Source: a virus. From it: DNA of 30,986 nucleotides. The notes below the pieces were generated by a model. That model had not been told where the DNA came from. It did not search any database and saw only the letters and a list, made by a program, of their open reading frames with translations. The DNA is taken from the IMG/VR virus record IMGVR_UViG_3300034631_000006, positions 1 through 30,986 of that record. One strand, given 5' to 3'. Within the stretch, counting starts at the first letter, position 1, and every line of letters begins with the position of its first letter. Below, in pieces: positions 3,096-29,410 of this stretch. The position numbers and the translations under genes were made by a program.

Positions 3096-5760
3096 AGATC
3101 TCGATCGTCCCGCCCGAGCCGTTGATGAACATCTTGCCGTTGTCGGATTGGAGCTGCTGGAACCGGGCCAGGGCGAGCTTCACCACGCCGCCCTGGATCA
3201 CGAACGGGTAGGTCGACGTGCTGCCGTCCGTCACGATGAAGCGGTCGGTTCGCATGACGATGGTCGAGGATGTCGGCGTCGTGTCGATGTAGATGCCGGT
3301 GTCCTTGAACGTGTCCCCCGCACTGGCCTTGGCGAGGATGGCGATCCGCGAGAAGGATCCGTCACCGGCGACGGCGGAGGCGTAGAAGGCGATCAGGCCG
3401 GACGCGGAGAGATCGGCGACCGTCGACGTGACACCGGTGAGTGCCTGGCTGTTGGCAGCGACCTGCCCGTTGATGCTCGTGACGGTGCCGCTGAGGTCCG
3501 AAAGCGCCTGCGCCTGCCCGTTCACCTGTGACTGGGTCGTGCCGAGACTTGCCGTGACCGCGGTGATCGCCTGGCTGTTGGCGGAAGTCTCTCCGCCCAG
3601 GCTCGTCACGCTCCCCTGCAGCGACGTGATGGCCTGGCCCTGCCCGCTCACTTCGCCGGAAACGTCGGTAAGGCGCACCTCCACCCCGTCGGTGCGCCGG
3701 GCGAGCGCTTCGGTCTCGCTGGCCCACGTCGTGCGCTGCTCGATGATTGCCGCCGATGCGCTGGCCGCCTCGCTCTGCTGCACGACGTTCGTCGTGGCGA
3801 TAGTGGCCGCCAGTCCCTCGAGCAGCGTTTCGAAGCGGCCGAAGCTCTCGGGTCCGAAGCGCAGCACCTCCTGGATATCCCCCTGCAGGTCGGCAAGCTC
3901 GGCCGCGAGGTCCTCGCGCAGCGTGGTGACGATCTGCGAGGGCGAGAAGAACGTCGCCCGCGGCGGGTTCGTCACCACCGTCCCCTGCAGCGTGTAGGAG
4001 GTATTGGCGACGAGACCCTCGACCACGACGCCGGTGACGAGCGCCTTGTCGAACGTCGCCTGGATGCGCCGGCTCGGGTCGTCGCTCTTCCAGTACTCCA
4101 CCACGACGGCATCGACCGTCACGTCGTCGATCGCATCCCACTGCACGGTGATCGCCGGCAGCGCCCTTCCCGCAGCATTGGTGACCTGGCTGGCATAGGC
4201 CGTGAAGCCCTGCAGCGTCGAAAGGCGCACCGGGCCAGCCGGGGCGACGCGGGCCGGGCGCTCGGCAATGACCACCGCGCTGTCGTAGATGCCGTTGCCG
4301 ACCTCATCCAGCGTCAGCGTCACGTTCCGGGCGCCGTTGGCGTTCAGCGCGCCGAGGGAGCGGCCCACCACCTGATAGGTCCGCGTGCCGTAGCGCGCGC
4401 TGGCGACGGATATCCAGTCGCCGGGCTCCAGCACGATCCAGCGCGGCCGCACCGTGACCGTCTCGGATGCCTGGTAGCGAGACCGGCGCAGTGCCGCCTC
4501 GGCGAGGTCCGAGGCCTGGCTGTCGATGAACACGGCCCCGAAATTGAGCGCCTGCGCGTGCCGCTCCCGATCGGCGGCAAGCGCCTCCGGCGAGGAGCGC
4601 GGCTCGTAGGACGTCGCCGACCAGAGATCCGCAGGCGAGTTGAACGTGCCGTAGACGGTATTGACCAGATCCGAGCGCGAACGCTTGGCCCGAAACTGCC
4701 GCGGCGACCCGACGATCACGTCGTCATCGGTGAGTGTCGCGACCACCGGCTGGTTGGCCCCGACGATCGGATGGTCGCCGTCGACCAGGTAGAACAGGCC
4801 GCCGCTGCAGGCCTCGAGGACCGGGGCGAGATTGTCGGAGTGCGACACGCCGTCCGATGTGGAGAACAACGCTCCTGCCCTGTAGCGGTACGGCCGGGTC
4901 GGCGTGCTCTCGTCGCACACATTGGCGGCCGGCATCCATGGCGCGACGGGAAGGTCCACCGCCGGCACGCCCTTCCCGACGAGCAGCTGTCCGTTGGCGA
5001 AGAAGCCGCGCTCGTAATTATAGGCCTGGACGATCGGGTTCTCCGAATACTCCCATGTCGCGATGTCATTCCAGCGATGGGGACCCGAGCCGCCGGCGGT
5101 CGTGTCCTTGCGAGGATCGTAGAGCGGCGCGCCCTCGAACTCGAATAGGAGCTGCGGGACGCTCGCCATGTCCTCGTCCTGGAACATCGCGCTGACGACG
5201 ACGAAGGCGGTCCCCCTGCCGACGTGATCCGCCGTCCAGCGCCCCGAGGGATTGGATGACCCGGCCAGCCCGTTCTCGCCGAACTCGACCGCCTGCAGCG
5301 CACTGTGGCGGCCGTCATAGACCCGGATGCGGAGCAGGTCTGAGTCGGCGGGATAGCCGGAGACCAGCGCGCCGCGCGTGTTGGTGTCGGCCCAGTTGAT
5401 CGTGCGCCACTCGCCGTTCACCGCGACCCGGGTCAGCGCCGTGATCGGGAAGTCGGACAGCACGAAAACCTTCTGCAGATACTTGTTCGATGAGCCGTAG
5501 GTGTTCGTGTAGACGTCGTGACCCGCGACGGCGACGAGCCCGACCGCGATCTCGCGCGGCCGATCGCCACCGTACTGGACCGACAGCTTCGTGCCGCTGA
5601 CCGTCTCGGCCCGATCGGGCTTGCCCCGCAGCGCGTTGACGGCGAAGTTGAGCCCGATGCCGAGCAGCGCTTGACCGACGACGCCGAGCCCGCCGACGAA
5701 AGACGCAATGCCGGCGATGGCGGAGCCGATGGCCGCGATAGCTGGTGCGATGAATGGCAT
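3088..5760 (-). CDS. Central tail-tip / host-specificity protein (gpJ-like)
   Basis: 890 residues, in the position of lambda gpJ. Visible order: a hydrophobic Gly/Ala-rich N-terminus (about 5-45); a large tail-hub region with YGGDRPR near 65 and the N-Y-E-R-G-F and A-A-N-V-C-D-E stretches around 250-285; a fibronectin type III-like domain (roughly 530-615, Q-W-D-A to L-Q-G-T); a helical stalk (about 620-700); a repetitive trimeric coiled-coil-like region (about 695-770) where S-L-x-G-x-V-T-S and A-N-S-Q-A alternate; and a C-terminal beta domain of DUF1983 type ending D-N-G-K-M to I-E-I-Y-D. It forms the tip that contacts the host and triggers DNA ejection. Its last residues are echoed by the 35-residue gene at 6178. 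Confidence 0.85.
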   Translation of the reverse strand: MPFIAPAIAAIGSAIAGIASFVGGLGVVGQALLGIGLNFAVNALRGKPDRAETVSGTKLSVQYGGDRPREIAVGLVAVAGHDVYTNTYGSSNKYLQKVFVLSDFPITALTRVAVNGEWRTINWADTNTRGALVSGYPADSDLLRIRVYDGRHSALQAVEFGENGLAGSSNPSGRWTADHVGRGTAFVVVSAMFQDEDMASVPQLLFEFEGAPLYDPRKDTTAGGSGPHRWNDIATWEYSENPIVQAYNYERGFFANGQLLVGKGVPAVDLPVAPWMPAANVCDESTPTRPYRYRAGALFSTSDGVSHSDNLAPVLEACSGGLFYLVDGDHPIVGANQPVVATLTDDDVIVGSPRQFRAKRSRSDLVNTVYGTFNSPADLWSATSYEPRSSPEALAADRERHAQALNFGAVFIDSQASDLAEAALRRSRYQASETVTVRPRWIVLEPGDWISVASARYGTRTYQVVGRSLGALNANGARNVTLTLDEVGNGIYDSAVVIAERPARVAPAGPVRLSTLQGFTAYASQVTNAAGRALPAITVQWDAIDDVTVDAVVVEYWKSDDPSRRIQATFDKALVTGVVVEGLVANTSYTLQGTVVTNPPRATFFSPSQIVTTLREDLAAELADLQGDIQEVLRFGPESFGRFETLLEGLAATIATTNVVQQSEAASASAAIIEQRTTWASETEALARRTDGVEVRLTDVSGEVSGQGQAITSLQGSVTSLGGETSANSQAITAVTASLGTTQSQVNGQAQALSDLSGTVTSINGQVAANSQALTGVTSTVADLSASGLIAFYASAVAGDGSFSRIAILAKASAGDTFKDTGIYIDTTPTSSTIVMRTDRFIVTDGSTSTYPFVIQGGVVKLALARFQQLQSDNGKMFINGSGGTIEIYD

Positions 5761-24026: not shown

Positions 24027-24250
24027 TGGGCGTCTCCTCGATTGCGCCGTGCCCTCCACTCATCGACGCCCAGGGCCCGGCGCGCGGCGCGCTCGTCGAC
24101 ATCGTCATCGGCCACAGACGCCTTGGCCTTCGGCCGCCAGTCGCGAAGGTCGACCTCGATCTTGCCGTCGGCGCGACGCCCGTTCTTGTCGCGCTTGAAG
24201 TCGGTGGGCGGGCTCACCGCCCGGCCTGGAAGCGAGAGCGTCGGCTTCAT
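24023..24250 (-). CDS. Small basic hypothetical protein
   Basis: 75 residues, ATG at 24250 overlapping the RNase H stop as ATGA, and overlapping the next start as TTGA. Very rich in Arg, Lys and Asp (K-R-D-K-N-G-R-R-A-D-G-K-I-E-V-D near 20-34, E-R-A-A-R-R-A-L near 53) with no hydrophobic core, so probably partly disordered. No family recognised; accepted because it is coupled at both ends. Confidence 0.6.
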   Translation of the reverse strand: MKPTLSLPGRAVSPPTDFKRDKNGRRADGKIEVDLRDWRPKAKASVADDDVDERAARRALGVDEWRARRNRGDAH

Positions 24251-25080
24251 GCGAACGTCCTCCCGTCCGCAGCGTCATGGATCCGGGAGGCATAACCCAA
24301 GGAATTGCGCTCTCGCTCAGCGTCGAGGACTCGCTCGAGGGCGATGTCGCGCCCCATCGCCGCCAGTTCATCGGCGCGCTCGTTGCCGGCGGTGCCGACG
24401 TGTCCCCTCACCCACTCCAGGGTGATCGGCACCAGGGTCAGAGCCTCGTCGAGATCCCGCCACAGATCGGCGTTCGCCAGCTCCTTCTCGACGCCGCGGC
24501 GCCATCCCTTCTTCTTCCAGCCGTGCCGCCAGTCGTTGCAGCCCTTCACGACATACTGGCTGTCGCAGAGCAGGCGGACCGGCTCGACGACACCGCGCTC
24601 CGCGAACCACCGGAGCGCCATCAGCGTGCCGGTGATCTCCATGATGTTGTTCGTCACGTCGGCCGCGCCGCCGTGCTCGGCGTGGATTTCGACACCATCG
24701 CGGTAGACGACGAAGCCCCAGCCGCCCACGCCCGGGTTCGGCTCGCAGCCGCCGTCGCAGAAGATGACGAGGCCAGTATCGAGGTTCGTTGCGGAGGTGG
24801 CCGGTGTTCGGTCGCGTGGTGGCTTCGATCCCTTGCTGCGCTTGGATTTCGAGGCGGCCGGACTGCCTGAGGAGCTAGGCGCCGCCGCCGCGGTCTTGTC
24901 CATGCGCCGCAGCAGCGTGAAGCACGACGCACCCTTCGGCGGGAACTTGAACCGCGTGCCGAGCAGCTGCTGAGCCATGAACGCCGCCTGACGCTCGGAC
25001 TTGAAGGCCGTGACGTCGGCGCCGAGGCTGACGAGCTTGCTGCGGAGCGCGACAAGCGATTGAGGAAGCTGGTAGGTCAT
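24247..25080 (-). CDS. rnhA: RNase HI with N-terminal extension
   Basis: 277 residues from ATG 25080 (ATGA with ParB-like stop). Residues about 1-62 are an unrelated helical domain; a Ser/Lys/Pro/Ala linker (65-100) connects it to an RNase HI domain with the DEDD catalytic set: F-C-D-G-G (Asp109), N-N-I-M-E-I (Glu148), L-C-D-S-Q-Y (Asp173) and R-A-D-E-L (Asp237). It also has the basic W-K-K-K-G-W-R-R substrate handle near 188-195. It degrades RNA in RNA-DNA hybrids and could remove replication primers or R-loops. The N-terminal domain may set targeting. Unusually complete for a phage. Confidence 0.88.
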   Translation of the reverse strand: MTYQLPQSLVALRSKLVSLGADVTAFKSERQAAFMAQQLLGTRFKFPPKGASCFTLLRRMDKTAAAAPSSSGSPAASKSKRSKGSKPPRDRTPATSATNLDTGLVIFCDGGCEPNPGVGGWGFVVYRDGVEIHAEHGGAADVTNNIMEITGTLMALRWFAERGVVEPVRLLCDSQYVVKGCNDWRHGWKKKGWRRGVEKELANADLWRDLDEALTLVPITLEWVRGHVGTAGNERADELAAMGRDIALERVLDAERERNSLGYASRIHDAADGRTFA

Positions 25081-25856
25081 GCCGCCTTCCTCCGCTTCCT
25101 GCACCGCTGGAACCAGGTCGATGCGAGCCCCTTCCATGCCGGGCAGCCGTGGGTCGCCGCAAACCGCTTCGCCTCGGCGTCGGCCGCAGTGCCCATCGCG
25201 AGGATCGTCGCCGTGAGGTCTTCACCCTCGATGACGCCGCAGAACTCCTCTGCGGTCATCAGGTGCTCCACCGCCTTGATGTGCGTCGCGGTGATCGGCG
25301 CCAGCTCGGCCTTGGCGAGTATCTCGAGGAGCTGCCGGGCCCGCATGGCGCCGCGCCGGCCGATCATGGCCTGTATGGCAGCGACGGCGATGCAGTCACC
25401 CGGCTTGTAGACCTGCGGGTGCTTCGGGATCCTGATGCCGGCGCGGTCGCACACCTGGCGCACCGTCTCCGCATCCTCATCGCCGGTAGCGAGATGCGCG
25501 AAGAACAGCTCGAGCGCGCTGGTGTTCTTTCGCTCCGCGTTGATGCCGACGAAGCTTGCCGCCTCCTCGGCCACCCCGTCGGCCGTGATGATCACCGCAG
25601 GCACGACTGTGACGCTGGGGTGCAGTTGCGCGGCGCGCGCGCGGTGCTGGCCGTCGATGATGCTGAATCGTCCACCTTCCTTGGGAGCGACGACGAGGGC
25701 GCCGAACCGGTCCCAGCGGAAGCCTTCGGCGATCTTCGCCACGCGCTTTTCGTCCTCCGGCCGCTGGTACAGCGCGTCGACGTCGAGAAGGCTGACATCG
25801 AGCCAGTCGAGGACCGGCACCTCGCCCGGGTCTGGTATGTTGGTCGAAGCGGTCAT
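25077..25856 (-). CDS. ParB-like nuclease-domain protein
   Basis: 259 residues, ATG at 25856 in an ATGA overlap. Opens with the ParB/Srx pattern: L-L-D-V-D-A-L-Y-Q-R-P near 23-33, G-F-R-W-D-R-F-G, then S-I-I-D-G-Q-H-R-A-R-A-A near 65-76, which includes the conserved G-Q-H-R. A helical C-terminal domain follows with H-L-M-T-A-E-E and a Cys-rich, very basic tail. Phage members bind or nick DNA; whether this one cuts is unknown. Coupled to RNase HI, it belongs to the replication/early module. Confidence 0.8.
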   Translation of the reverse strand: MTASTNIPDPGEVPVLDWLDVSLLDVDALYQRPEDEKRVAKIAEGFRWDRFGALVVAPKEGGRFSIIDGQHRARAAQLHPSVTVVPAVIITADGVAEEAASFVGINAERKNTSALELFFAHLATGDEDAETVRQVCDRAGIRIPKHPQVYKPGDCIAVAAIQAMIGRRGAMRARQLLEILAKAELAPITATHIKAVEHLMTAEEFCGVIEGEDLTATILAMGTAADAEAKRFAATHGCPAWKGLASTWFQRCRKRRKAA

Positions 25857-26284: not shown

Positions 26285-26442
26285 GCGATCCTCCGTATTT
26301 CGGTGATAACCCCGTCACCCTTTGGCCGCGGGATCCGATACGCAGTTTCCATCGCTGCCTTGCGGATCAGCGCCGGCAGTGCGTCGATCACGTTCGACGG
26401 TCGAGCCGCAGCCCAGGAGAACAGATCAAGCTGCTCGGCCAT
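26281..26442 (-). CDS. Small QLDLF-motif protein
   Basis: 53 residues from ATG 26442, with GGAGG six bases upstream, overlapping the end of the replication gene by 17 bases. Starts M-A-E-Q-L-D-L-F-S-W. A Q-L-x-L-F peptide is the known clamp-binding (beta sliding clamp) signature. Here it stands at the N-terminus of a tiny basic protein encoded right after the initiator, so a link to the host clamp is possible. This is inference from the motif only. Confidence 0.6.
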   Translation of the reverse strand: MAEQLDLFSWAAARPSNVIDALPALIRKAAMETAYRIPRPKGDGVITEIRRIA

Positions 26443-27202
26443 TGCGAACCTCCGTCTTCCACTCGGCAATATCGCAGGGGAACAACGCTTCTCGGATCAG
26501 CCGCTGCAGGGCCGTCTCCATCCGATGCGCAGGAACGCCCATCTGGACGAGGAACTTGCGGTTCTCCTCCAGCGACGGCTTCGGCTCGAACGCGAATTCC
26601 TGTTCGTCGAAAGCCTCGCGCGTGAGCACTAACCTTTCATCGTCGGAGCGGATCTTGTTTTGTCCTGATCCTAGGTCCTGGTCCTTTTCCTGATCCTTCT
26701 CCTGGTCCTTATCCTTCTCCTTGCTTCGAAGGGCCTCCGAAGCCCCTTCGAAGCCCCTTCCCAACAAGTGCTCGAAATTCTCCAAACAGAGCGCATCACG
26801 AAGGTTGAATGGCTCCCGGTATCGAGCATAAAAGTCCAGCGTTATCTGGCAGATAGGTAGCTGAGCGAGCTGCTTGGCGACGGCCTGAACCCGGTTGTCT
26901 TTCGGGCTCAGTCGAGGCGCTACCTGCGAGAACGCCATCTCGTGCACCCAAACGATCTCGTTCTCCTCGTCATAGGAGGCCAGACCCCCCTCTATGACCC
27001 TTCGAAGCCCCTTCGAAGCCCCTTCGAAGGGGATACCCAAATCGATCGACAGGTATTGCAGATCGAGCGCGTAGATGCCGATCATCGTCGAGTGCGGACT
27101 AGTCGTCAGATGGTAGTAGACGGCGATCGCAACCGGGTCGCCGCGGAGCTTCTTTATGTCCGTCTGCCAAACGACAGGTGGAATAGCGGCGAACGATCTC
27201 AC
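26426..27202 (-). CDS. Replication initiator-like protein (phage O-like)
   Basis: 258 residues from GTG 27202, AGGAG six bases upstream. The N-terminal part (1-100) is a winged-helix pattern: V-W-Q-T-D-I-K-K-L, Y-Y-H-L-T-T, L-S-I-D-L-G-I and I-W-V-H-E-M-A, seen in phage replisome organisers. A charged low-complexity run (K-D-K-D-Q-E-K-D-Q-E-K-D near 160-172) separates it from a helical C-terminus with no helicase or primase motif. The gene holds two arrays of an 11-bp TTCGAA repeat and a purine tract, as lambda O holds its origin. Function by position and pattern, not proven. Confidence 0.68.
   Translation of the reverse strand: MRSFAAIPPVVWQTDIKKLRGDPVAIAVYYHLTTSPHSTMIGIYALDLQYLSIDLGIPFEGASKGLRRVIEGGLASYDEENEIVWVHEMAFSQVAPRLSPKDNRVQAVAKQLAQLPICQITLDFYARYREPFNLRDALCLENFEHLLGRGFEGASEALRSKEKDKDQEKDQEKDQDLGSGQNKIRSDDERLVLTREAFDEQEFAFEPKPSLEENRKFLVQMGVPAHRMETALQRLIREALFPCDIAEWKTEVRNGRAA
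26655..26723 (-). other. Strand-biased purine tract beside repeat array
   Basis: About 69 bases that are nearly all pyrimidine on the + strand (purine on the - strand), made of imperfect 12-base units such as GGATCAGGAAAA. It encodes the K-D-Q-E repeats. It directly adjoins the inner TTCGAA array, as the easily melted tract does in the lambda origin. Confidence 0.55.
26725..26760. repeat. 11-bp repeat array, inner (candidate origin iterons)
   Basis: Units spaced exactly 11 bp start at 26725 (TTCGAAGGGCC), 26736 (TCCGAAGCCCC) and 26747 (TTCGAAGCCCC), with a decayed fourth at 26758 (TTCCC). They lie inside the replication gene and encode G-F-E-G-A-S-E-A-L-R. The phase is shared with the outer array. 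Confidence 0.72.
27001..27033. repeat. 11-bp repeat array, outer (candidate origin iterons)
   Basis: Three units, TTCGAAGCCCC, start at 27001, 27012 and 27023 with an exact 11-bp step; the last ends GGGG instead. They encode P-F-E-G-A-S-K-G-L-R-R in the initiator gene. Same unit as the inner array 254 bp away. Confidence 0.75.
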
Positions 27203-27530: not shown

Positions 27531-27769
27531 TGGCCGCCCTCCTCGATCTTGCGGACGATGGCAGGCTCGATCACGTCGCGCAGGAGCCACCAATTTCCCG
27601 AGCGCTTGCCGCGCCCCTCGACGGTTTCCGACCGGACAAGCCAGCCATCGAGGAATTGTGCCTGCGGCTCCGGCACGGGATCGAGATAGACGCGGGTGCC
27701 GTCGGTGACCTCGTAGAGGCCGGGCCCGTCGTAGCGGCCGGTCGCCGCGGTGTCGGTGATCGTGCTCAT
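27527..27769 (-). CDS. Small hypothetical early protein, WW/Tyr-rich
   Basis: 80 residues, ATG at 27769 in an ATGA overlap. Beta-leaning: G-R-Y-D-G-P-G-L-Y-E-V-T-D-G-T, then a Trp pair (G-N-W-W-L-L-R-D). No cysteine or hydrophobic signal. Coupled at both ends to the other early genes; no function can be assigned. Confidence 0.62.
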   Translation of the reverse strand: MSTITDTAATGRYDGPGLYEVTDGTRVYLDPVPEPQAQFLDGWLVRSETVEGRGKRSGNWWLLRDVIEPAIVRKIEEGGQ

Positions 27770-28958: not shown

Positions 28959-28981
28959 TGTCAATTTCGAAGGGGTGAGGA

Positions 28982-29410
28982 ATGGCGAAGGCAGGTCGCG
29001 GTGCCGATCAGTACATGGTCCGCTTTCCGCGGGGACTTCGCGACCGCGTGAAGGCAGCGGCGGCGAGCAACGGCCGTTCGATGAACGAGGAGATTGTCCG
29101 GCTCCTGGAGCGGACCTATCCCGAGCCATGGCCTCTCGACGTCCGACTTCACGAGTTGAGCGTTCTAATGGGGGCCCTTCGGAAGGTGCGGGGACACGAG
29201 CGAGCCCTCGACGCGATCACGGGCAGCATTCTGGAAACCGCGGAGGCTATAGCAGCGGGCCATGTTCCGGAGATCGATGAGGAGACGAGGAATAAGGTCC
29301 GTGAGGAGCTTGAGGCGTGGCATCGAGCTAGAGCGGAGAAGGAACAGGACCGTTACGAATCGTTCGACTATCCTCGCGGCGATCTTGATGACGAGAGCGA
29401 CAACGCTTGA
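28982..29410 (+). CDS. Arc-type ribbon-helix-helix DNA-binding regulator
   Basis: 142 residues, ATG at 28982, with a GAGG site upstream. The N-terminal 45 residues are an Arc-like RHH domain: Q-Y-M-V-R-F-P-R-G-L-R-D-R-V-K (10-24) and S-M-N-E-E-I-V-R-L-L-E-R (33-44). An elongated helical, charged C-terminal region follows. Coupled to the integrase by a TTGA overlap. Given the operator next door and no CI/LexA-like gene in the window, it is the best candidate for the lysogeny repressor. Inference. Confidence 0.8.
   Translation: MAKAGRGADQYMVRFPRGLRDRVKAAAASNGRSMNEEIVRLLERTYPEPWPLDVRLHELSVLMGALRKVRGHERALDAITGSILETAEAIAAGHVPEIDEETRNKVREELEAWHRARAEKEQDRYESFDYPRGDLDDESDNA

Follow-up and report, generated by a model that had tools for sequence, protein, structure and literature searches.

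The window analysed here is the complete 30,986-base virus record IMGVR_UViG_3300034631_000006, and its gene content is that of a temperate tailed phage. Terminase, portal, capsid and tail proteins are encoded on the minus strand, and an integrase gene is found at the right-hand end. The sole initiator-like gene recognised in it is an open frame of 258 amino acids with a GTG start, at 26426-27202 on the minus strand. Its product matches PHROG 25210 (E = 1.1e-42) and PHROG 1701, a 'DnaD-like helicase loader' (E = 1.4e-30), in both cases over the N-terminal domain and linker, which bears out the initiator-like character proposed in a sequence-only reading of this DNA. No Pfam family was found for the protein at E 0.01 or for the proteins of its relatives at 0.1, PDB sequence searches returned nothing meaningful, and the window proteins scanned included none recognisable as a helicase, primase or DnaC-like protein. 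At two to three genes' distance downstream of the initiator gene are genes for a ParB-like protein and an RNase H (25077-25856 and 24247-25137). The cumulative GC-skew minimum falls at 27649, close to the initiator gene, and was left out as evidence because gene orientation alone could produce such a minimum.

Arrays, hexamer tract and recognition helix

The initiator gene contains two arrays of an 11-bp unit with the core AAGGGGCTT, and the exact 11-bp step described earlier was confirmed in the window sequence. The unit is a near-palindromic AAG-SSS-CTT, in which S is all G or all C, that is, 9 bp on an 11-bp step. The outer array (array A; 26997-27035, minus strand) holds exact copies of AAGGGGCTT at 27016-27024 and 27005-27013 with half units on both flanks, and reads AAGGGGCTTCG AAGGGGCTTCG between these half units on the gene strand. 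The inner array (array B; 26727-26759, minus strand) has AAGGGGCTT at 26751-26759 and 26740-26748 and, still on the 11-bp step, a third unit with the core in the opposite orientation, GAGGCCCTT at 26729-26737; it reads AAGGGGCTTCG AAGGGGCTTCG GAGGCCCTTCG AAGC on the gene strand and corresponds to the start of the protein linker, about 440 bp from the start codon. The separation of 254 bp given previously holds as the offset of equivalent units (26746 to 27000), whereas the arrays themselves stand about 240 bp apart. Among 5000 synonymous shuffles of the window gene, none reached the four exact units or the two exact 11-bp pairs observed (mean, 0.08 units), and CTTCGAAGSSS with one mismatch permitted matched 26 times in the window against 9.5 expected; chance repeats are rejected by both the shuffling and the pattern counts. 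A lone TTTCGAAGGGG site is also present at 28965-28975, just ahead of an Arc-like regulator gene (28982-29410).

Beside array B, at 26655-26723 on the minus strand, runs a weakly paired hexamer tract, (AGGANN)n, which encodes the linker stretch KEKDKDQEKDQE and whose hexamers read, in order, AGGAGA, AGGATA, AGGACC, AGGAGA, AGGATC, AGGAAA, AGGACC, AGGACC and onwards. The earlier description of a 69-base purine tract adjoining the inner array was right about the strand bias, as 78% of the coding strand is purine and the most purine-biased 69-mers in the window start within 4 bases of the tract; however, the tract is not purely purine, and what is conserved is a hexamer repeat rather than generic purine. 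Its GC content is 48% compared with 58% for the gene, an AT-richness that is only relative, the phage being GC-rich. By nearest-neighbour stability, only 0.09% of the 69-bp windows in the stretch are weaker.

An AlphaFold model of the protein (mean pLDDT 79.7, and above 90 over most of residues 20-130) comprises a winged-helix N-terminal domain, a low-confidence disordered linker, which is encoded by array B together with the hexamer tract, and a small helical C-terminal domain. DSSP on the model assigns a strand at 43-45, helices at 48-55 and 59-71 and wing strands at 75-78 and 83-86, all with pLDDT of 96-98. By its position in the modelled fold, helix 59-71 is the recognition helix; its codons (26990-27028, minus strand) coincide with array A, the exact units of which encode residues 60-66. 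Foldseek with the model retrieved generic winged helices only (best E = 0.035). Comparison with PDB chains likewise returned winged helices generally, among them RepA chains (4pql, 4pt7, 5kbj and 4pta, over residues 1-88), whose Z scores of 7.3-7.8 over 85-86 residues were no higher than those of unrelated winged helices.

Conservation at the DNA level in two initiator families

Relatives at 35-45% identity in annotated phages of Klebsiella, Acinetobacter and Escherichia carry the units at the same two places. A unit-pattern scan of viral contigs yielded at least 120 loci, and two initiator families account for 113 of the 120 viral loci listed. Because this set had been selected on the repeat, relatives were also sampled by protein alone, and units with at most one mismatch were found at both sites in all 60 distinct relatives so sampled. 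A pair of array B units was found in 142 of 152 distinct relatives, while array A is degenerate or missing in 35 of 142. The repeats persist while the protein diverges to about 30% identity or to undetectable similarity, and hence the comparison with relatives on which the earlier reading had staked its proposal came out in its favour.

The codons point the same way. Relative codon entropy at family-conserved residues was 0.14 in array A compared with 0.86 outside it in 50 relatives, and 0.13 compared with 0.75 in the protein-sampled subset plus the window. The genes of those 50 relatives, a set partly chosen by the repeat, held 177 exact units and 69 pairs, as opposed to 5.8 and 0.05 in their synonymous shuffles. 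Among relatives, array B can run in either orientation and fall in any of the three codon frames, and so encodes six peptides (EGASKGL, RGFEGAS, KGLIRGF, APSKPLR, SPLQAPS and KPLQSPL); reversal of the second array in L004 and in L005, the latter being phage PhiR5_2 with recorded host MG1655, turns EGASKGL into EAPSEPL-like peptides. The F-E-G-A-S peptide previously regarded as imposed by the repeats is thus present in the window protein but is one of six that the repeat can impose. Across array B units overall, conservation is 89-99% at the nine positions of the core, and the two positions of the spacer are nearly random. Judged by these sequence comparisons, selection at the arrays acts on the DNA and not on the peptide.

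The unit pairs are also confined to the gene, with 328 of 333 pairs in 1.69 Mb of loci lying inside the initiator gene, three of the remaining five just upstream of its start and two in one truncated copy; on account of this confinement, a dispersed repeat or general regulatory site was rejected. Several individual loci show variations. In the initiator gene of L096, array B is expanded from nucleotide 421 onwards to eight or more units, so copy number may grow. An extra pair lies directly upstream of the gene start at L337:5494-5513, L065:5784, L092:4579 and L149:3962, and is possibly an operator or an additional origin array. L075 has two arrays with opposed half units (3291-3310 and 3726-3745) outside long open frames and with no recognised family gene, and Shewanella genomes carry tandem head-to-tail ladders of about six to eleven copies of the 11-bp unit (L302:1680-1808, L349:6033-6096 and L307:2478-2585) with no recognised initiator gene within the 8-kb locus.

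The hexamer tract is conserved as well, at a nearly constant distance from array B, though it is absent from a few members. Self-identity of the relatives' tracts is 0.59-0.62 at a shift of 6 and 0.54-0.60 at a shift of 12, compared with 0.26-0.39 at the other shifts tested (3-9). Most proteobacterial relatives have (AGGAAC)n or (AGGAGC)n. Of the genes with a phased RGW trinucleotide, 119 have it in codon frame 2, 20 in frame 0 and 3 in frame 1, so that the tract is conserved across codon frames as QEQE, GTGT or GNGN linkers; in L137, for instance, AAGCCAGGAACAGGAAC DNA is translated as KPGTGTGT instead of SQEQEQE. Since a linker may profit from low complexity, selection at the DNA level is less certain for the tract than for the arrays.

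Many of the remaining loci with the unit belong to a second initiator family, whose proteins start with MAKRFTDTxKW. Array B was found in 47 of 47 distinct protein-sampled members, a sample drawn narrowly from around a single query. Most of the family have array A at codons 16-26 and not in the recognition helix, and some members have no array A; the tracts are (AGGATA)n/(TGGTTA)n or (GGTAAT)n. Profile comparison of the two families gave no link (3% probability), and the models of both share the same winged-helix topology. A more distant survey by DNA pattern, in one genome per species, returned 116 stretches, 75 of which hold the pair in one of the two families. The record titles name Pseudomonadota (Acinetobacter, Proteus, Rhizobium, Caballeronia), Clostridium and Dysgonomonas, and metagenome bins labelled Nitrospira or Elusimicrobia, which may be misassigned, also carry the pattern. 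A close copy annotated as hypothetical or DNA-binding protein is present in 464 of 5,426 complete E. coli genomes, and the E. coli copy examined lies upstream of an ATP-binding protein gene. In annotated relatives, DnaC-like or primase-helicase genes follow the initiator gene, some copies of which are annotated 'DNA replication protein O'.

A candidate intragenic origin and its alternatives

Given that the repeats are kept where the protein has changed beyond recognition, the gene is most probably also the start site of phage replication. We put the probability at about 80% that it serves as both initiator and origin, in an intragenic arrangement like that of lambda O, where the initiator would bind both arrays and open the tract. 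The winged-helix domain of the gene product would bind the AAG-SSS-CTT units, and because these are stepped by 11 bp, we propose that bound copies stack on one face of the helix. Array B and the bound protein would then assemble into a nucleoprotein core and open the weak hexamer tract next to it, whereupon the exposed strand and the helical C-terminal domain could recruit the helicase. Many relatives encode a DnaC-like loader or a primase-helicase directly downstream that might serve helicase entry; in the window phage, host proteins would presumably do so. Array A, about 240 bp upstream, may be an accessory site acting through looping to array B, cooperative loading or self-limiting bridging. 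We infer each of these elements, namely binding by the gene's own product, tract opening, the start of replication and the role of array A.

On sequence alone, an origin is indistinguishable from an operator bound by the same protein. The arrays might accordingly be operators through which the protein regulates transcription of its own gene while replication starts elsewhere, and both the near-palindromic units, which suit a repressor, and the further array abutting the gene start in L065, L092, L149 and L337, where an operator would be expected, fit such a role. We nevertheless consider it unlikely, as upstream copies are rare, both conserved arrays lie inside the coding sequence, with array B some 440 bp from the start codon, and the arrays are followed, at a distance that hardly varies, by a conserved weak tract for which an operator has no need. 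Recognition of the unit by a conserved host factor rather than by a phage protein seems very improbable. A shared host protein would simply explain the identical unit in two families unlinked by profile, but the unit is confined to the initiator gene, the hosts are labelled with several phyla, and the two winged-helix folds, which share one topology, could just as well reflect distant homology with a single conserved specificity.

It is harder still to credit that the protein needs EGASKGL and QEQEQE and that the DNA repeat merely follows. EGASKGL does lie within a highly conserved helix, and QE, KD and GN linkers are typical of flexible linkers. Against this, array B in both orientations and all three frames gives six unrelated peptides, the codons of array A are frozen while codons are free at equally conserved residues elsewhere, and (AGGAAC)n is translated as either QEQE or GTGT. 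For the arrays, selection at the peptide level was rejected on codon entropy and the six-frame occurrence.

An origin within the initiator gene is a known arrangement. The O proteins of lambda and Stx phages bind in-gene iterons beside an AT-rich tract, and two iterons plus this tract are enough for unwinding (PMC7466680). In those origins, too, the iterons lie midway along the initiator gene, where they encode the interdomain region and adjoin an easily melted tract; they form one array of 4-6 copies, and its expansion lengthens the O protein (PMC7466680). The suggested likeness to lambda O therefore stands for the layout, as DNA-conserved in-gene direct repeats adjoin a tract of predicted low stability, but not for the sequence family, since there was no match to the Pfam phage replication O family. 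Here, in contrast to lambda, a second array lies in the codons of the DNA-binding domain, the inner array may face either way, the tract is a hexamer repeat, and the unit is 9 bp on an 11-bp step.

In-gene iterons also occur in Gram-positive RepA_N plasmids. RepA_N initiators (pSK41, pTZ2162, PLE) combine a winged-helix N-terminal domain resembling DnaD with semi-palindromic iterons (PMC7145576), both of which resemble the present system, and RepA chains align with model residues 1-88. However, neither the window protein nor its relatives had a RepA_N Pfam match, the RepA_N iterons converge on a poly-A tract whereas the units here converge on a GGG/CCC core, and the PLE iterons are non-coding. 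A further likeness is to the DnaA boxes and DnaA-trios of bacterial oriC, where an array of double-strand binding sites is followed by a strand-biased tract of short period (PMC6669920), although the DnaA-trio is a repeat of the trinucleotide 3'-GAT-5' and the tract here has a period of 6, not 3. The strand opposite the AGGA hexamers is a repeated TCCT, which fits the single-strand TnnT motif of the DnaD recognition element (PMC10201434); we keep this match as a lead only, because tracts of the MV and GN types break TnnT. Compared with either element, the consensus differs and the tract lies inside coding sequence.

Implications for temperate phages

In-gene iteron origins are already known. 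In the open-access literature, which was the scope of our search, we found no description of the unit or the layout, and the 11-mer appeared only by chance in unrelated papers. As far as that literature shows, the novelty lies in the unit, in its occurrence across families and frames, in the overlap of one array with the recognition-helix codons and in a hexamer tract that is independent of frame. More tentatively, and at rather less than even odds, AAGSSSCTT iterons and a hexamer loading tract might constitute one origin module shared by winged-helix initiators of phages in many phyla and better conserved than the proteins reading it, with the hexamers as a single-strand loading track analogous to, but distinct from, the DnaA-trios. 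In one large group the array would encode the very helix that reads it, so that helix and site could not change independently.

The signature of the unit would locate, to within some dozens of bases, the probable origin in a very large group of temperate phages, among them E. coli prophages whose gene is called hypothetical or DNA-binding protein. It also provides an unusually clean case of a DNA function overriding the peptide, as one element uses all six reading frames of a gene. Should array A prove to be bound, the DNA target of the recognition helix would also encode that helix, and this would account for a specificity that appears fixed although the remainder of the protein drifts. In addition, the hexamer tract bears on whether short-period single-strand tracks open origins generally.
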